Below, in pieces: positions 30,857 to 38,353 of a DNA stretch of 64,000 bases (positions within the stretch are counted from its first letter, which is position 1; each line of letters opens with the position of its first letter). The translations under genes were made by a program, and so were the position numbers. Source of the DNA: an uncultured Myxococcales bacterium (GTDB lineage: Bacteria; Myxococcota_A; UBA9042); assembly GCA_903842345.1 (NCBI GenBank), contig CAIMLR010000007.1, positions 124,001-188,000 on the forward strand, in the 5' to 3' direction. The notes below the pieces were generated by a model. That model saw only the letters and a list, made by a program, of their open reading frames with translations. It did no database searches and was not told the origin of the DNA.

Positions 30857-32572
30857 CTACTTCGCCTTGACCTTCTTGCCGTGCGCCTTCTTGCCATGCG
30901 CTTTCTTCCCGTGCTTGCCGGCGTGCGGCTTGTCGCCGTGGGCTTTTTCCGCCTTGGCTTGCTTGGCCGTCGCCGCCTTGTCCGCCTTGGCTTGCTTGGC
31001 CGCGGCCGCTTTTTCTGCCTTCGCATGCTTTTTCGCCGCAGCTTTTTCCGCTTTGGCGTGCTTGAGGGCGGCCGCCTTCTCTGCCTTGGCTTTCTTGGCC
31101 AGCGCCGCCTTTTCTTTCCTGGTCAACGGCTTCTCAACCTTGGCCGGCGCCGGCGGGGGCGCTGCGACCTTGGGCGCTTCCACCTTGGCGGGCTCGACCT
31201 TGGGCGCGGGCGCCACGTCCGGACAACCGTCGCCATCCTCAAACCCGTTCTTGGTCTCCGGGCTGGACGGGCACAAATCGTCGACGTCCAGGATGCCATC
31301 CTTGTCGTTGTCCGGATCGGGGCAACCGTCAGCATCCTCAAAGTTGTCGATGTCTTCTGCGACGTTCGGGCACTTGTCCTGGGCGTCCGGAATGCCGTCC
31401 TTGTCGTTGTCGAGGTCCGGGCAGCCGTCCGCGTCCTCAAAGCCGTCCTTGTCCTCGGCGATGCGCGGGCATTTGTCCGCGTCGTCGGGAATGCCGTCGC
31501 CGTCGTCGTCCAGGTCCGGGCAACCGTCGCTGTCCTCAAAGCCGTCCTTGTCCTCGGCTTCATTGGGACACTTGTCGTCCTTGTCGAGGATGCCGTCGCC
31601 GTCCTGGTCGCGGTTGATCTTGCGCGCGTCAAACTGCACACCTGCGGCCAGCCGCAGACCCGCCGAACCCATCGCCGACGTCGGCGCGCCGCCCGCCATC
31701 GCAAAGATCCGCCACGCGTCGCACACGCGCACGTCACCGCCGACAACGACGTCCACGACCGCCTGCGTCGTCGGCAGCGCGTTCGTCAACAGCGTGCCCT
31801 GGCCCTGCATTTCCGCGCGCAGCCCAAACAGGTCATCGGCAAACGCCCGCCGCGCCGCTGCACGCCACAGCCAGACCGAACCGGAGCGCGCAATCGTCGT
31901 GTCCGTGCCGTTCTCAACCGTAAAGCCCTGCGCGTCCACCGGATGCACGCGCAGCGACTGCGACGCCTGACCACGCACGCCCAGGTTGACGTCCGCGCGC
32001 CACGGCCCCAGCACCGCGGTTGCCAGCAGTTCCAGCGCGCCTGTCCAAGCGCCGCCCATCATCGAACCAGCCTTGGCCGTCGGCAGTTCGCCCACGCCCG
32101 CGAGGCCGAGGTGAAAGCTGAAGTCCGCCTCTTTCATGGACCAAAGCTGCCAGCGCGCGTCCACCCGCAGGTCGCCCATCGCCGGCGCGCTCGGCGTGTC
32201 CAGCTGCGCGAGGTTGGCGCCACCGCCGCGAATCACGCCGGCAATTGGCAGGCTGATGCCGACCATCCCGCGGTCCAAAAGCCCCAGAGCGCCGCCGAAT
32301 TCCACGGTTCCCAAATCACCGACCAGCGTCTGCGTCGCGCCGACTGTCGAATTCTGCAGGCGCAGCGGCATCCGCGCGTAGCCAAAACCCAGCCAGCCGG
32401 ACGCATCCAGATGTCCCGGCACCAGCGCCGACTTGGTCAACAGGCCGTCATCGGGACCCATGCCCGGCCGCCACGTCTGGACGTTCCAGGCCGGCGCTGG
32501 CAGCGGTTGACCCAGCGCGGGCACGGCCGCGAGCATCGCCAACAGCGCCCAGAGTTTCAGCAGAAATCGCAT
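30857..32572 (-). CDS. Envelope protein with thrombospondin type-3 repeats and Lys/Ala-rich tail
   Basis: A Sec signal (MRFLLKLWALLAMLAAVPALG) is followed by about 310 residues of barrel-like strands ending in Phe/Tyr/Trp patterns, suggesting an outer-membrane barrel. Four thrombospondin type-3 units come next (DQDGDGILDKDDKCPNEAED and related), each with Asp-rich Ca-binding loops and paired Cys. In OmpA-like relatives a peptidoglycan-binding domain follows at this point. Here there is a Pro-rich linker and then about 100 residues of Lys/Ala/His (AEKAAAKKHAKAEKAAA) ending in KKVKAK. Start ATG 32572 has AAGG eight bases before it; the upstream ATG at 32578 is closer. lolA lies just upstream on the same strand. 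Confidence 0.8.
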   Translation of the reverse strand: MRFLLKLWALLAMLAAVPALGQPLPAPAWNVQTWRPGMGPDDGLLTKSALVPGHLDASGWLGFGYARMPLRLQNSTVGATQTLVGDLGTVEFGGALGLLDRGMVGISLPIAGVIRGGGANLAQLDTPSAPAMGDLRVDARWQLWSMKEADFSFHLGLAGVGELPTAKAGSMMGGAWTGALELLATAVLGPWRADVNLGVRGQASQSLRVHPVDAQGFTVENGTDTTIARSGSVWLWRAAARRAFADDLFGLRAEMQGQGTLLTNALPTTQAVVDVVVGGDVRVCDAWRIFAMAGGAPTSAMGSAGLRLAAGVQFDARKINRDQDGDGILDKDDKCPNEAEDKDGFEDSDGCPDLDDDGDGIPDDADKCPRIAEDKDGFEDADGCPDLDNDKDGIPDAQDKCPNVAEDIDNFEDADGCPDPDNDKDGILDVDDLCPSSPETKNGFEDGDGCPDVAPAPKVEPAKVEAPKVAAPPPAPAKVEKPLTRKEKAALAKKAKAEKAAALKHAKAEKAAAKKHAKAEKAAAAKQAKADKAATAKQAKAEKAHGDKPHAGKHGKKAHGKKAHGKKVKAK

Positions 32573-32597
32573 GATCATGACCTTTTTCTTTGCGGGA

Positions 32598-33389
32598 TTA
32601 CGGCTGCAGGGACTTGACCTGGACGCCCGCTGGCGGGGTCCACTCAAACGCCTTGTCGTCCGTCGCCTCGTACTTCACGTCTTTCCACGCCAGCGCCGTC
32701 TCGTCACCCAGCGGGTCGATCAGGCGCGAACCGCGCACGGCGCCCGTCTTGCGGTCGACAAGCAGCGTCAGCGACCGCATCACCTGCGTGCCCTTGCGCG
32801 GCGTCAGCTTGAGCGGCACGACGTCCGGTTCCGGCGACCCGAGAATCTCCGTCTGGAAGTCGCGGCCGAGGTTGCCCTGACCGACGAGATACGACGTCGC
32901 CTGATACACTTGGCTATTCTTGACCGGCACTTTGGTCGCCAGCCGCTCGCGGCGTTCGTACGCCCACAGCGTGATGCCGTCGCAGAAGTAGAACACTTCC
33001 TCGTTGGGATACTCCCAGCGCATCTTGCCCTGCTTGCCCGTCTTGGCGTCGCCGCGCTGCAGGTACACGACGCCTTCGCGCGTGATGCCCGTCGCCAAGC
33101 CTTTCTTCTTCACGATTTGCGTGAAGTGCGCCTGAAAGCCCGGCTGCTTCTCGTAGAACGCCTGCACCGCGTCCGCGACCTGCTGCGGCGTCGGCTTGTC
33201 GGGCAGCGGCAGGACCGCGACCGGCTTGTCCGTCTCGTCAGCCGCGGGCTTGGCTTCAGGCGCGGCCACGGTTGTCACGACGGCAGGCTTCTTGGCCTTC
33301 TTGGCCTTGTGGGCCGCCAAAACGCCTGTCGGCACGGCGATCAAGCACGCCGTCGTCAGAAGAAATGCCACTTTTTGCCGATACGCCAT
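32598..33389 (-). CDS. lolA: LolA-like outer-membrane lipoprotein carrier
   Basis: This 263-residue protein has a signal peptide (VAFLLTTACLIAVPTGVLA), a Lys-rich linker (AHKAKKAKKPA), and the LolA pattern: VADAVQAFYEKQPGFQAHFTQ, GKMRWEYPN, FCDGITLWAYER, RSLTLLVDRKTGAV. LolA ferries lipoproteins from the LolCDE transporter across the periplasm. With many lipoproteins in the window this fits. A LolC/E-like gene lies 21 kb away; no lolD or lolB is in view. The ATG at 33389 was chosen since upstream codons in that frame give no signal peptide. Confidence 0.83.
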   Translation of the reverse strand: MAYRQKVAFLLTTACLIAVPTGVLAAHKAKKAKKPAVVTTVAAPEAKPAADETDKPVAVLPLPDKPTPQQVADAVQAFYEKQPGFQAHFTQIVKKKGLATGITREGVVYLQRGDAKTGKQGKMRWEYPNEEVFYFCDGITLWAYERRERLATKVPVKNSQVYQATSYLVGQGNLGRDFQTEILGSPEPDVVPLKLTPRKGTQVMRSLTLLVDRKTGAVRGSRLIDPLGDETALAWKDVKYEATDDKAFEWTPPAGVQVKSLQP

Positions 33390-33496: not shown

Positions 33497-33664
33497 GGAC
33501 TTGCAGACCGCGACTTACAGGACACACTGCGGCCCTGTGCTGCAAGTCCGCGAGACTACGTAAGCGCGCGTGGCTGTCCGGAGATTTCTGGCGGGCGATC
33601 TGGGCCGTGGTAGCGTCGAACGTGCCCAACTTCCACGTGAAGCGGGCTCGAATTGGAGAAAGCC

Positions 33665-36523
33665 ATGGCCCGCGCGCAGACAGACACGCTCATCAACCGG
33701 GACGGGATCGACAACGACGTTGCCGAGCCGCGCCGCAACAAAAAAGCGGGCGAGCCGGCGACGGCCAAGCAGCACAACGTGCGCGGCGAGATCGTCGGCC
33801 TCGTGCTGCTGTTCTCCGGCCTGGCATTTGCCGCCGCGCTCGTGACGTTCTCACCGCGCGACCTGAAGATCCTGCAGGACGGTCGCCAGACCGCGGAAGC
33901 CGTGCACAACGCGATTGGCCCAGTGGGCGCGCGCATCGCCGACCTGATGCTCAACCTGTTTGGCCTCGGCGCGTTCGTGCTGGACGCGCTGTTGCTGGCG
34001 CTGGCTGGCCGCACGCTGATGGGCAAGATGGCGGCGCCCAAGCTGCGTCCAACGGCTGGCATCGTCGGCGCAACGCTCTCCGTGCTCATCTTGCTGTACA
34101 TGTCGTCCAAGAGCGTCGGGCTGCGGCCGTTGGGCCACGATCCGGCGGGCTTCATTCCCGGCGCGATTGCCGTTGTCCTGTTGGCGCTCCTGTCGACGCT
34201 GGGCACGACGCTCGTCGCGGTGTGGATGCTGGCGGCGTCCCTCGCGGCGCTGACGGGCAAAGCGCTTGTCGGCGACACGGTGCGCTGGTTCTCCGGCCGC
34301 GCGCAGCCGGTTGCCGCGACGCTCGGCGTGTCGAGCGCCCAGGCGGCGCGTCAGGGTCTGGGGACGCTGAGCGCAGTGCCCGCGTGGTTCGCCCGTCGTC
34401 GCGCGGAGAAAGCGATGGCCGCGGAGACGGCGATGGCCGACGAACCCGACGAGCAGAGCGCGGACGCGGCCGTGAGCGCCTTCTTTGGCGAAGTGGAAAG
34501 CGTCAAGGCAGCCGTGGCGGCGCCTTCCAAGGGTGCGGAAACGGCTGTCCGCATGGCCCCGCCGCTTTCGCCGAGCGAGCCGGCGGTCAAGGAAGAGCGG
34601 CGCTTTGAGAGCCTGGATGTGCCGACGTCCGTGCGCCGCGCCCGCGAAGAAGCGAGCGTGCGGATTCGCCTGCCGGAGACGCCGGTTGTTGCGCATCGCG
34701 CGCTGACCGACGTGACGCCGCAGGAACAGGTCGAGACGAGCCACGCCGATCTGGCGCGCATTGCCGCAGCGACGATGCCGACCGCCGCGCTGGCGACCGG
34801 TCCGATGCCGACGATCGAGATTGAAGACCTGCCGCTGGAAGCCATCAAGGCGACGCTGCCGGAGATCGCAGACGTGCCACCGCCGGTGCCGGAAGCGCCT
34901 GTGGCCATTGCGGCTGCGCCTGCCCATCGCCTGACGCAGCCGGATCGCGGCCCGCGGATCATCGAGACGGAAGCGCTGCGGACCGATCGCCCGGCCGTCG
35001 CGGCGAGCTCGATCCAGGGCAACCTCGGCCTCTCCAAGACGTGGGTTTGCCCGCCGGCGTCGCTTGTGCAGGAGCCGCCGGCGCGCGTCGTCAACATGGA
35101 CGCGGCGATGCTGCGTGAGAACGCGCTGGTGCTGGAGCAAAAGCTCAGCGAGTTCAACATTCACGGCGAAGTGACCGATATCCGCCCGGGTCCGGTCGTG
35201 ACGACGTACGAATACCGCCCGGCGCCGGGCATCAAAATCTCCAAAATCGTCAACCTGCGCGATGACTTGACGATGTCGCTGTCAGCGCTCCGCGTGCGCA
35301 TCGTGGCGCCGATTCCCGGCCGCGACGTGGTCGGCATCGAAGTCCCGAACCAGAACCGTCAGATGGTCTACTTCCGCGAGATCATTGAAGCGCCGGTCTT
35401 CCGCGAGTCGACGAGCCCGCTGACGCTCATCCTCGGCAAGGACATTGAAGGCCGGCCGATTTGCACCGACCTCGCGCGCGCGCCGCACATGCTGGTGGCC
35501 GGCGCGACCGGTACGGGCAAGTCCGTGGGCATCAACACGTTCCTCTGCTCGATGCTCTACCGCTGCTCGCCCGATGAGGTCAAGCTGATCCTGATCGACC
35601 CGAAGATCCTGGAACTGAGCGTCTATGAAGGCATTCCGCACCTGCTGCTGCCGGTGCTGGACGAGCCGCGCAAGGCCGAGTTGGCGCTGAAATGGGCCGT
35701 GGCGGAGATGGATCGCCGGTATCGCCTGCTGGCCGATGCGGAAGTGCGCAACCTCGCCGGTTACAAGGCGAAGCTGCCGGAGCTGCGCGCCGCGGCGCTG
35801 CGCAAGAAGCAACTGGCGGAGCGCGTGGATGCCAACGGCGACATGAGCGAGGACGTCATCGATATCCCCGACGACATGCCGTACATCGTGGTGGTCATCG
35901 ACGAATTCGCCGACCTCATCATGGCGGCGGGCAAGGAAGTGGAGATCCCGGTGGCGCGGCTGGCGCAGAAAGCGCGCGCGGCGGGCATCCACGTGATCCT
36001 GGCGACGCAGCGGCCGTCGGTCGACGTCATCACCGGCATGATCAAGGCCAACTTCCCGACGCGGTTGAGCTTCCAGGTCGCGTCGTCGATGGACTCCAAG
36101 GTCATCCTGGGCGCGGTCGGCGCGGAGACGCTGCTGGGCAAGGGCGACATGCTGTTTGTCCCGCCGGGTGAGGGCCACCTGCGCCGCTGCCACGGCACGT
36201 GGATCACCGACGACGAGGTCGTGGCCATCGCCAAGCACTGGCGGGATCAGGGCGCGCCGAAATACGAGATGGACATTCTCCGCGACCCGGATGACCAGGC
36301 GCACAGCGCGTCGGACATGGACGACGCGGAGATGGACCCGCTGTACGACGACGCGATCCAGATTGTGCTGGAGAGCCAGCAGGCGTCGGTGAGTTTTCTG
36401 CAGCGCAAGCTGGGGATTGGGTATGGGCGCTCGGCGCGGATCGTGGACACGATGGAAGCGAGGGGCATCGTGGGGCCGAGTCGGGGGCCGAATAAGCCTA
36501 GAGAGATTTTGATTCAGCACTAG
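33665..36523 (+). CDS. ftsK: DNA translocase FtsK/SpoIIIE
   Basis: This 952-residue protein starts with four hydrophobic helices (VRGEIVGLVLLFSGLAFAAA; MLNLFGLGAFVLDALLLALA and others), then a long Ala/Pro/Glu linker. A RecA-like motor follows, with the alpha/beta core (VTTYEYRPAPGIKISKI), Walker A GATGTGKS (613-620) and Walker B VVVIDEFADLIM (Asp746). The gamma winged helix (SFLQRKLGIGYGRSARIVD) completes it. It pumps chromosome ends to the septum and activates XerCD at dif. ATG 33665 follows GGAGAAAG. A strong hairpin terminator is 35 bases downstream. Confidence 0.94.
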   Translation: MARAQTDTLINRDGIDNDVAEPRRNKKAGEPATAKQHNVRGEIVGLVLLFSGLAFAAALVTFSPRDLKILQDGRQTAEAVHNAIGPVGARIADLMLNLFGLGAFVLDALLLALAGRTLMGKMAAPKLRPTAGIVGATLSVLILLYMSSKSVGLRPLGHDPAGFIPGAIAVVLLALLSTLGTTLVAVWMLAASLAALTGKALVGDTVRWFSGRAQPVAATLGVSSAQAARQGLGTLSAVPAWFARRRAEKAMAAETAMADEPDEQSADAAVSAFFGEVESVKAAVAAPSKGAETAVRMAPPLSPSEPAVKEERRFESLDVPTSVRRAREEASVRIRLPETPVVAHRALTDVTPQEQVETSHADLARIAAATMPTAALATGPMPTIEIEDLPLEAIKATLPEIADVPPPVPEAPVAIAAAPAHRLTQPDRGPRIIETEALRTDRPAVAASSIQGNLGLSKTWVCPPASLVQEPPARVVNMDAAMLRENALVLEQKLSEFNIHGEVTDIRPGPVVTTYEYRPAPGIKISKIVNLRDDLTMSLSALRVRIVAPIPGRDVVGIEVPNQNRQMVYFREIIEAPVFRESTSPLTLILGKDIEGRPICTDLARAPHMLVAGATGTGKSVGINTFLCSMLYRCSPDEVKLILIDPKILELSVYEGIPHLLLPVLDEPRKAELALKWAVAEMDRRYRLLADAEVRNLAGYKAKLPELRAAALRKKQLAERVDANGDMSEDVIDIPDDMPYIVVVIDEFADLIMAAGKEVEIPVARLAQKARAAGIHVILATQRPSVDVITGMIKANFPTRLSFQVASSMDSKVILGAVGAETLLGKGDMLFVPPGEGHLRRCHGTWITDDEVVAIAKHWRDQGAPKYEMDILRDPDDQAHSASDMDDAEMDPLYDDAIQIVLESQQASVSFLQRKLGIGYGRSARIVDTMEARGIVGPSRGPNKPREILIQH

Positions 36524-36558
36524 CGGGGGGTGCGGCCGGCGCCGCAGGCGCGCCGGAT

Positions 36559-36585
36559 GCGAGAGAAACCGCAGGTTTCTCTCGC
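36559..36585 (+). terminator. Intrinsic terminator-like hairpin after ftsK
   Basis: GCGAGAGAAACC (36559-36570) pairs perfectly with GGTTTCTCTCGC (36574-36585) around a three-base GCA loop. A pyrimidine-rich stretch containing TTCCTTTT follows. This is the clearest terminator in the window. Confidence 0.7.
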
Positions 36586-36605
36586 GCTCTCTTCCTTTTG
36601 GCTCG

Positions 36606-36936
36606 CTGCGCAGGTCGGGCTGCGCCCTCCCCGTGCTCGCTCGACGAAGTCTTGGGTAGGAGGTCGATGGGTGGCACGGCTGATCTGGGCCGGCTGCGCA
36701 GGTCGGCTGCGCCTCCCCGTGCTCGCCTTGGATGGGGGGCTTGGCGCTTCGCGCCTCGCTGGGTGAAGGCGGCTTGGCGCTTCGCGGCTCGCGGGAGGAC
36801 TACCGGGGCTTGGCGCTTCGCGCCTCGCTGGAGGGCGCGGCCCAGGCTTGGCGCTTCGCGCCTCGCTGAGTGAAGGCGGCTTGGCGCTTCGCGCCTCGCG
36901 GGAGGACTACCGGGGCTTGGCGCTTCGCGCCTCGCT
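36606..36936. repeat. Non-coding repeat cluster with a 107-bp tandem duplication
   Basis: Six copies of a 23-base unit beginning GGCTTGGCGCTTCGCGCC start at 36738, 36771, 36807, 36845, 36878 and 36914. Each contains the small hairpin GGCGC-TTC-GCGCC, except copy 2 (36771), whose second arm is changed. Copies 1-3 and 4-6 are offset by exactly 107 bases and share spacers, so the block is a tandem duplication. A second, roughly 35-base direct repeat beginning CTGCGCAGGTCGG occurs at 36606 and 36694. Both strands stay open over the block, but the codons read as simple repeats, so I treat it as non-coding. The whole gene-free stretch is 36524-37043. Confidence 0.85.
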
Positions 36937-37043
36937 GGGCGAGTGGCCGATGGCGTGCTTGGCCCTACCGTTGGCTCGAACCCGCTGGGAACACGCAATG
37001 ACCGGACGGCCCGAGGGCCCGTTCCTACCCCTGACGCAGCCAG

Positions 37044-37367
37044 CTACGCCTTCGCGTCCACGTTGCTCCGGAACTGCACAATCTCCGGCGCGCGCGGGCC
37101 AAATGTCGCCTCCGCGAACCGGATGAGCTTTTGCCGCTCCACCGCCGCCGCCTTCAGCTCCTTTTGCAACGCCGCCGTCGCGGTCTTGAGCGCCGTGCGC
37201 GCCGCCTCCTGGTCCGCGTTGTATTTCTCAATCAGCGGCGAGCGCTTGGCCAGCGACTCGGCGATGGGGCCCGCCACCGGCGGCAGCTCTTTGAGGTGCG
37301 CCTTGGTGCCGGCGACGGCAAGGTTGTTGCGCAGAATTTGGCCAGCTGTGGATTGGGTTGCAGTCAT
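37044..37367 (-). CDS. Small protein of unknown function
   Basis: This 107-residue protein is not one I recognise. It has a short polar N-terminus (MTATQSTAGQILRNNLAVAG), the segment LPPVAGPIAESLAKRSPLIE, and a helix rich in Ala, Lys and Glu (LKTATAALQKELKAAAVERQ), ending in FGPRAPEIVQFRSNVDAKA. It has no signal peptide or membrane helix. AAGGAG lies six bases before ATG 37367, so it is probably a real gene. A 12-base palindrome upstream (37429-37440) may be its operator. Confidence 0.6.
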   Translation of the reverse strand: MTATQSTAGQILRNNLAVAGTKAHLKELPPVAGPIAESLAKRSPLIEKYNADQEAARTALKTATAALQKELKAAAVERQKLIRFAEATFGPRAPEIVQFRSNVDAKA

Positions 37368-37784
37368 TTTCGTCTCCTTGGGTCGGTGAAGTGGGTGGAT
37401 TGGGCCAGAATGGACTGTGCGAATGTAGAACAACGTTGTTGAGGTCCAGAACAGGGCTGAAAGTGACGGGTCGATTCGCGCGGCAACGGATGAATAGGGT
37501 GATTGGGCGGGTGAAGCGTGTTGCTCGCTGGTGCGGTACGGTTGTTGTCGGGGCCAAGCGGAGAGAGCCGCGCGCGACGGCTTGTGGGGTCACTGTACGG
37601 GAGCGCGGATTTGGCTGGCAAGAGGGTAGTTGTGGTTGGATGTCATGGGGTTGTCATGACGGCGCCGCGCGGGTCAGCCAGTGGGCTTCGCGTCCAACGC
37701 ACGCATCGCGCCGGGTCCCGCGGCAAAATCCGTCGCGGCACGAATACCTCCTGCGCCATAGCCACACCGCGCGCCAGGAGTCCC
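37368..37784. other. Intergenic region (417 bp) with two inverted repeats
   Basis: I see no convincing gene here. It contains the perfect palindrome AACAACGTTGTT (37429-37440), on the upstream side of the small minus-strand gene, and the inverted repeat GTCATG-N7-CATGAC near 37640-37660, upstream of the DUF4160 gene. Either could bind a regulator. Promoter elements are not clear on either strand. Confidence 0.4.
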
Positions 37785-38045
37785 ATGCCCGTCATCAGCC
37801 GCTTCTTCGGCATCGTCATCCGCATCCACTTCCGCGAACACGCGCCGCCGCACTTCCACGCCCAATACGGCGACGAAGCGGCGAGCATCGCTATTGGCGA
37901 CTTCGCGGTGCTCGAAGGGCGGCTACACCCGCGCGTTCTGGGCCTTGTGATGGAATGGGCCGCCTTGCACAACGCCGAGCTTCTCGTAGACTGGCAGCGC
38001 GCGCTTGCGGGGCAACAGCCACATCCAATCGCGCCATTGCACTGA
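37785..38045 (+). CDS. DUF4160 protein
   Basis: This 86-residue protein shows the DUF4160 pattern: MPVISRFFGIVIRIHFREH, HFHAQYGDEAASIAIGDF and LVMEWAALHNAELLVDW, with conserved His residues in 'EHAPPHFHA'. The family is usually followed by DUF2442, as here at 38054, and the pair is suspected of being a toxin-antitoxin-like unit. AGGAG lies six bases before ATG 37785. The function is not established. Confidence 0.85.
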   Translation: MPVISRFFGIVIRIHFREHAPPHFHAQYGDEAASIAIGDFAVLEGRLHPRVLGLVMEWAALHNAELLVDWQRALAGQQPHPIAPLH

Positions 38046-38053
38046 GGTCGCCG

Positions 38054-38353
38054 ATGACCCTGCACGTTGACAGCATCCCGATCCCGCGCGGGCTTTTCCG
38101 CGTCGTTGCCGTGCAAGCGGTCGGCCCAACGTCGCTGCGCGTCAGCTTTGACGACGGCGTCAGCGGCGAACTCGACATGGACACTTACCTGCAATGGGAC
38201 GGCGTGTTCGCAGCGCTCAAGGCCGATCCGACCCTGTTCGCGCAGGTGTTTGCGGACCCGGAGTCGGGAACCGTTGCGTGGCCGGGCAATATCGACATCG
38301 ACAGCGAGGCGCTCCACGCCAGAATCGTCTGGGATCGCGCGCAGCACACCTGA
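38054..38353 (+). CDS. DUF2442 protein
   Basis: This 99-residue protein carries the DUF2442 signature: VVAVQAVGPTSLRVSFDDGV, then GELDMDTYLQWDGVFAAL and a C-terminal 'VAWPGNIDIDSEALH'. It follows the DUF4160 gene by eight bases and should be co-translated with it. The ATG at 38054 was used because the upstream part of the open frame overlaps DUF4160. DUF2442 is proposed as the partner of DUF4160; the mechanism is unknown. Confidence 0.83.
   Translation: MTLHVDSIPIPRGLFRVVAVQAVGPTSLRVSFDDGVSGELDMDTYLQWDGVFAALKADPTLFAQVFADPESGTVAWPGNIDIDSEALHARIVWDRAQHT

Follow-up and report, generated by a model that had tools for sequence, protein, structure and literature searches.

The stretch of palindromic repeats behind ftsK in an uncultured Myxococcales bacterium raises the question whether it represents a local duplication, a mobile repeat or a part of a larger element with a role at the end of the gene. 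The window, the whole stretch of DNA analysed (64,000 nucleotides; C7:124001-188000 of a 5.85-Mb draft genome), holds the repeats between the stop codon of ftsK and the stop end (37044) of a minus-strand ORF (Table 1). In agreement with the original prediction, six hairpin units are arranged in two like-spaced triplets. The 21-nt unit GCTTGGCGCTTCGCGCCTCGC starts at 36739, 36772, 36808, 36846, 36879 and 36915 (spacing 33, 36, 38, 33 and 36), with five of the six copies exact and one change in the second copy, and the second triplet repeats the first one 107 bp further on (98% over 94 nt), which TRF recovers with a period of 107, 97% matches and a score of 388. Equally real is the second 35-bp direct repeat, as the two modules of about 35 nt differ by two single-base gaps only. 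The span of 36606-36936 assigned to the repeats is, however, too narrow, since the element starts at about 36524 with a head (36524-36595) that begins directly 3' of the ftsK stop codon. The repeats in the window do not stand alone as a duplication, nor do they amount to a demonstrated REP/RAYT system, but make up the 3' part of a composite element with dispersed copies, and the family is defined by the head, which lies upstream of that span. The 70-nt head folds better than shuffled sequences (z -2.71; 1 of 200 shuffles as good), while folding of the whole 371-nt stretch is no better than that of shuffled sequence (z -0.56), so that a large structured RNA is not favoured.

Table 1. Features of the element and its surroundings, in window positions
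Feature	Position	Strand	Basis or remark
Tandem repeats reported by TRF	30871-31603	-	inside a long frame, 30857-32647; apparently protein repeats
ftsK, gene bearing the element at its end	33653-36523	+	Pfam FtsK_SpoIIIE, alpha, gamma, 4TM; stop TAG 36521-36523
GC hairpin A, near-invariant within the genus	36536-36556	+	cross-copy comparison, folding
Hairpin B	36559-36585	+	12 perfect pairs; covarying versions
Hairpin B, purine-rich 5' arm	36559-36570	+	followed by loop GCA
Hairpin B, pyrimidine-rich 3' arm	36574-36585	+	
Pyrimidine tail, presumed third strand	36587-36595	+	mirror of hairpin B 3' arm
Body module 1 (first ~35-nt repeat)	36605-36640	+	aligns in the G000:C2 copy and, with more divergence, behind ftsK in G002
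Body module 2 (second ~35-nt repeat)	36693-36726	+	sequence, alignment to other copies
Tandem array, six hairpin units in two triplets offset by 107 bp	36738-36938	+	sequence, TRF, unit counts
129-aa ORF convergent with ftsK	37044-37433	-	no Pfam family above cut-off
DUF4160 and DUF2442 domains, adjacent frames	37518-38353	+	possible small accessory gene pair

A genome-wide count gives a divided answer, as the unit itself is confined to this locus and related arrays and the same head occur elsewhere. With zero or one mismatch the 21-nt unit is found at six places, all at this locus; with up to three mismatches 17 places are found, 9 of the 11 others lying within related arrays, as compared to a total of three for the reversed pattern, and the 13-nt core GGCGCTTCGCGCC has one further exact match on contig C15. 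BLASTN with the window stretch, the C39 copy and the C20 copy as queries identifies 15 places in the genome, located on contigs C2, C3, C4 (three), C7, C14, C20, C21, C30, C36, C39, C44, C46 and C47. Four of these are cut by contig ends (C4:371 kb, C36, C44 and C46); since the head side remains in two of them and the body side in the other two, the copy number amounts to 13 to 15. The common order is gene end, hairpin or hairpins, tail, GC-rich body and mostly a terminal array, with long bodies up to 98% identical and assembly breaks inside copies. The family of dispersed palindromes that had been proposed is thereby borne out by copies in the genome and, as outlined below, in the genus.

The terminal arrays differ between copies. 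One regular expression finds 6, 5, 4, 7, 5, 5, 3, 1, 5, 1 and 3 unit-like matches in the 11 copies examined, the first match being the body module in several of them, and the spacing of 33/36/38 nt in the window compares with 30 nt in C2, 62 nt in C39 and 41-42 nt in C30. Units are uniform within C7, C2 and C30 and variable within C21; C2 has units in common with C30, and C20 with the C4 copy at 111 kb. Such variation in number, spacing and unit fits local amplification, as the suggestion of an amplifying repeat locus had implied. A strict scanner, which may pass over other versions, found no further such hairpin in 464 kb of the genome, pointing to a special element rather than to the general terminator of the organism. 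On contig C47 at 131 kb (G000; L018, about 1460-1520), a hairpin GGGAGAAGGAGCC with the tail CCCTCCTCCTCCTC, followed by TTGGCTCGCTGCGCAG, appears by eye to be distantly related to the head and to have a comparable mirror tail.

Beyond the own genome, a similarity search in 52 genomes (own included) produced matches at E <= 1e-4 in five, all of one genus. The hairpin A core was found at 59 places in all five genomes of the genus (4 in the own genome, 2 in G003, 31 in G002, 12 in G001 and 10 in G004; reversed-pattern control 0), 58 distinct ones of which were read. A longer hairpin-A pattern located 34 of 35 stretches on named contigs in three uncultured Myxococcales MAGs and was absent from viral contigs; the one remaining stretch, from Ancylobacter, has no hairpin B and was taken as chance. 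Equally, a degenerate hairpin-and-tail pattern matched four genomes among 52 of the class and four among 377 sampled from the phylum, both times the own genome, G001, G002 and G004, with a reversed control of 0 and no match in another genus. This pattern covers arms of the GAGRRAAAC form only and misses even G003, whose versions differ, so that relatives of other shape may exist elsewhere. As far as searched, the element thus appears dispersed within, and specific to, one uncultured Myxococcales genus of lake bacteria. Rfam covariance models gave no match at gathering score in the window and none with E<=1 in 36500-37020, and literature searches on triplexes and terminators, REP in Myxococc-, Box C and hairpins lacking a U-tract, which cover few subscription journals, contain no description of the element among the matches listed.

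A further feature of the family is the relation between hairpin B and the tail behind it. Alignments of the copies misalign the hairpin loops; the 58 places were read by a parsing rule (purine arm, loop, pyrimidine arm, 3-nt spacer, tail) that fixes the general shape and not the match. Of the 53 places that were parsed, none has a tail that matches the mirrored 3' arm at fewer than 5 of 7 positions. Of the five unparsed places, three break off at a contig end or in a run of G, and the other two contain one shared foreign sequence in the hairpin. In the latter two, both in G002 (L250 from 1507, L264 from 1471), this sequence begins with GGAGGGTGTTGAATATCCCCG just after the hairpin B loop, as if an insertion element targets the hairpin. 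The window arm GAGAGAAACC has the tail CTCTCTTCC, which is the parallel complement of the purines 36561-36567 followed by CC, and the commonest version, at 17 of the 53 parsed places, combines GAGGGAAAC with CTCCCTTCC. Further arms and tails are GAGGGGGAAAC with CTCCCCCTTCC, GAGGAGGAAAC with CTCCTCCTTCC, GAGAGGAACC with CTCTCCTCC, GGGAGAAACC with CCCTCTTCC and GAGGGGAAAACC with CTCCCCTTTCC, while in imperfect versions the 5' arm is matched at 5/7 (GGAAGAAACC with CCATCATCC; GCAAGAAACC with CCCTCTTCC) or 6/7 positions (GGGCGAAACC with CCCACTTCC); the types of head include GAGAGAAA and GAGGGGGAAA.

For statistical evaluation, 25 distinct versions were used with none dropped, 20 from the search keyed to hairpin A, which makes no use of hairpin B or the tail, and 5 from the own genome without a standard hairpin A; one tail shortened by the parsing expression was entered whole. 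Out of 195 tail positions, 185 agree with the 3' arm read in mirror image (permuted mean 133.6, sd 5.8) and 181 with the complement of the 5' arm read in parallel (permuted 132.5 +/- 5.8). Neither value is reached in 100000 permutations, a figure that is no true probability as the versions are related and copying between copies is possible. The purine arm exceeds the tail in length by 1 in 24 of the 25 versions and by 0 in one. In a set of 15 versions with near-duplicates left out, C*G.C and T*A.T together account for 111 of 117 column triplets (columns 1-9 counted, hence 117 of 118 positions). Furthermore, at all three genes that carry the element in more than one genome, arms and tail differ jointly between at least two genomes, although the 5' arm of L270 fits at 5/7 only; at the ftsK end the head is of the GAGAGA type in the own genome and of the GAGGGGG type in G002. 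Judged by these comparisons, purine arm, pyrimidine arm and tail keep the register of a triplex while their sequence changes. An intrastrand Y*R.Y triple helix requires just such a tail, parallel to the purine arm and fitting it as Hoogsteen partner.

The position of the element relative to genes is close to fixed. The nearest called upstream gene is in sense at 52 of the 58 distinct places (52 of the 55 with any upstream call), antisense at three and missing at three. A sense stop codon precedes the GGCGCC core by 3-20 nt at 42 of the 58 places and lies within 56 nt at 48, whereas four sense upstream calls are 760-1209 nt away. In a frame test of 38 places, from which L062, L074, L075 and L164 were left out as bare hairpin-A core matches only (L062, a spurious locus, is absent from later tests), a sense frame ends within 250 nt in 38/38, within 40 nt in 33/38 and at 3-20 nt in 31/38; for random sample points, the first two values are 1198/2000 and 272/2000. 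On the downstream side, convergent genes are not clearly enriched at the 52 places, with 17 co-directional, 15 convergent and 20 without a called gene in the stretch examined, as compared to 177 to 94 at sample gene ends, all by a crude gene caller; where present, a next called gene on the minus strand lies 332-834 nt from the core. The near-fixed orientation together with the spacing from the stop codon favours a role in RNA. The upstream proteins are mostly unrelated, as 58 compared proteins (51 from core places and 7 from other copies of the own genome, with frames for C3 and C21 that look wrong) include three close orthologue groups between genomes, namely FtsK from two genomes, an aconitase-family protein from three and the product of the gene upstream of the C47 copy from two, plus one weak match. 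With so few upstream genes common to genomes, copies turn over between species.

The ftsK site was compared between genomes. In G002 the element is present at the ftsK end, including the two body modules, and three diverged units can be recognised by eye. In the window, a lipoprotein gene at about 38.8 kb lies about 2.3 kb from ftsK; in G003 and G004, as well as in G005, G006, G008 and G013 from four other genera, its homologue (39-67% identity) follows ftsK at a distance of no more than a few hundred bases. G011 has a weak lipoprotein match only, more than 1 kb beyond ftsK, and none was found in the stretch examined of G001, G002 and two further genomes. As the homologue is close to ftsK in relatives, what separates ftsK from the lipoprotein gene in the window, namely the element and the accessory genes (minus-strand ORF, DUF4160/DUF2442 pair and AHSA1-like gene), probably entered there, in accordance with the neighbourhood of accessory genes noticed originally. 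The ftsK end of G001 (L192, reverse strand) has a different tandem array of GGCATGAGTGCCCATCCCGCAACTGC-like units, indicating that this gene end gathered repeats more than once.

Based on the family, the architecture, the position and the covariation thus established, we consider, at a probability of about one half, that this genus-specific 3'-end element might be a triple-helix-assisted terminator or 3'-end cap with a hairpin array amplifying locally behind it. The narrower proposal of a natural bacterial triple-helix terminator, in which the hairpin's own pyrimidine tail, a third strand kept by genus-wide covariation, would end transcription or seal the mRNA 3' end without a U tract, is more tentative and for the time being doubtful. 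The conserved head of hairpin A, hairpin B and tail would be transcribed in sense at the gene 3' end, whereupon in the nascent RNA the tail would leave the foot of hairpin B and re-enter its major groove as third strand by C+*G-C and U*A-U triplets. RNA polymerase might then be stopped and released, or the RNA 3' end be capped, without a U tract, and the array may be born by slippage or recombination beside the three-stranded structure. The triple helices of MALAT1/ENE at eukaryotic and viral RNA 3' ends, which are built from a U-rich loop and an A tract, resemble this arrangement as a pyrimidine tract would occupy the major groove of a stem at the RNA end; they differ from the bacterial element, predicted here from sequence, with its C/U third strand and covarying hairpin. 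Against the triple-helix terminator or cap counts that C+*G.C triplets are disfavoured at neutral pH and that some versions, for example the one with the tail CTCCCCCTTCC, would need five neighbouring ones. A C-rich strand is likewise said to be disfavoured at neutral pH by Holder et al. (2015; PMC4666352), who equally mention that the related PIT/Box C motifs had no terminator activity in the tests of others. In favour of a structure in RNA counts, according to the same paper, that Y-type intrastrand triplexes can form in RNA and purine-type ones cannot.

These motifs, Box C/PIT/TM-ECO, are the closest known system. Bacterial intrastrand triplex motifs have been under discussion since 2000, as cited by Holder et al. 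(2015, PMC4666352), who also refer to previous studies by Maher and co-workers. Like the present element, the motifs are, by this paper, dispersed and intergenic, consist of three matching tracts on one strand (stems of 9 nt there, 7-10 nt here), have a second loop of 3 nt (GCG, GCC, AGA, AGG or GGG here) and occur at change-prone loci. The search rule quoted for PIT/TM in PMC4666352 allows stems of 6-15 nt, with one mismatch from a length of 7 nt onwards, and loops of 1-6 nt. Judged by eye against this rule, the window copy reads as 7/7 triplets with 9 nt, partly paired, between the inner tracts, or alternatively as 8 triplets with one mismatch and 7 nt between them, just beyond the loop limit; the GAGGGAAAC version, commonest and found in G002, would lie within the limits if taken as 8 triplets, one of them mismatched, its loops then measuring 5 and 3. 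The differences, by the same paper, are the sense-strand order, which is R-Y-Y here (class III) and Y-R-R there, the many covarying versions in contrast to one highly conserved sequence, the near-fixed orientation 3-20 nt after stop codons where the E. coli motif has neither strand bias nor set distance, and the attached GC hairpin, body and array, found here in one Myxococcales genus only. In its order (R-Y-Y in sense, R-R-Y in antisense) and its sequence, the element departs from the Box C/TM-ECO consensus CCCTCNCCC-N3-6-GGGNGAGGG-N3-GGGNGAGGG as given there.

The main rival to the terminator or cap, which we regard as somewhat unlikely, is derived from these motifs: the triplex would form in DNA and not in RNA, as H-DNA or as a single-strand fold during replication or transcription, as has been proposed for Box C/PIT/TM, and would stall polymerases or promote rearrangement with no role in ending transcripts. 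The head, a palindrome followed by a mirror repeat, suits such a structure, as do the ftsK ends that differ between congeners, the few upstream genes common to genomes and the varying arrays. On the complementary strand the triplex would be of the purine motif, which suits G runs better at neutral pH; this equally speaks for DNA, while zones of 7-10 triplets are short for H-DNA. TM loci of E. coli are reported to be more rearranged (PMC4666352); on the other hand, the near-fixed orientation and the spacing of 3-20 nt from stop codons are unlike the E. coli motif as described there.

An ordinary hairpin terminator, whose tail would track the stem through some other cause, be it an antiparallel hairpin formed alternatively by purine arm and tail or the copying of the stem during repair, is improbable. 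The element does resemble intrinsic terminators by a strong hairpin right after the stop codon, with a 9-12 nt pyrimidine stretch in the position of the U-tract, and the head folds stably without a triplex. It differs in that the C/U tail tracks the sequence of the stem and in that a run of U is missing; a terminator scan of 36000-38000 reported no site at the element, where the hairpin is present and the U run absent. Antiparallel pairing of tail and purine arm, in the best of nine registers, equally exceeds permutation (122 of 195; permuted mean 104.0, sd 3.1; 0 of 100000 as good), but the mirror fit is far better, and the version GGGAGAAACC with CCCTCTTCC fits at 7/7 positions as mirror and at 3/7 in antiparallel. 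Furthermore, template switching yields inverted and not mirror repeats, which counts against a stem copied during repair.

Very improbable is a selfish mobile repeat of the REP/BIME or MITE type that a transposase would mobilise, with a preference for gene ends and no host function. Copies at mostly lineage-specific positions, with near-identical long bodies and assembly breaks within them, would be compatible with such a passenger, and like REP/BIME the element comprises dispersed intergenic palindromes that are sometimes arrayed, hairpins A and B being short (20-40 nt) as is characteristic of REP. The long composite architecture and the mirror tail are, however, unlike REP/BIME with RAYT, no RAYT neighbour was found beside the element, and three-strand covariation is not expected of a passenger. 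Mobilisation by RAYT, which the original prediction had proposed to look for, is not supported: the sole Y1_Tnp of the genome (C17:104451, 158 aa) has a DDE transposase as neighbour, and none of eight exact pieces of the element occurs in the 2078 bases around it. A palindrome duplicated locally by chance and belonging to no wider family, to which the confinement of the 21-nt unit to this locus might have pointed, is refuted by the dispersed copies, the related arrays and the same head elsewhere.

The E. coli motif is, according to PMC4666352, highly conserved in sequence, so that the triplex and the mere sequence could not be told apart as the feature that is kept. In the lake genus, three tracts change jointly in 25 versions, in one register and in almost one orientation, which provides comparative evidence for selection on a three-stranded fold. 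The natural set of versions equally constitutes ready compensatory variants for testing this fold. If the element indeed ends transcripts, it would represent a new mode of termination in GC-rich bacteria.
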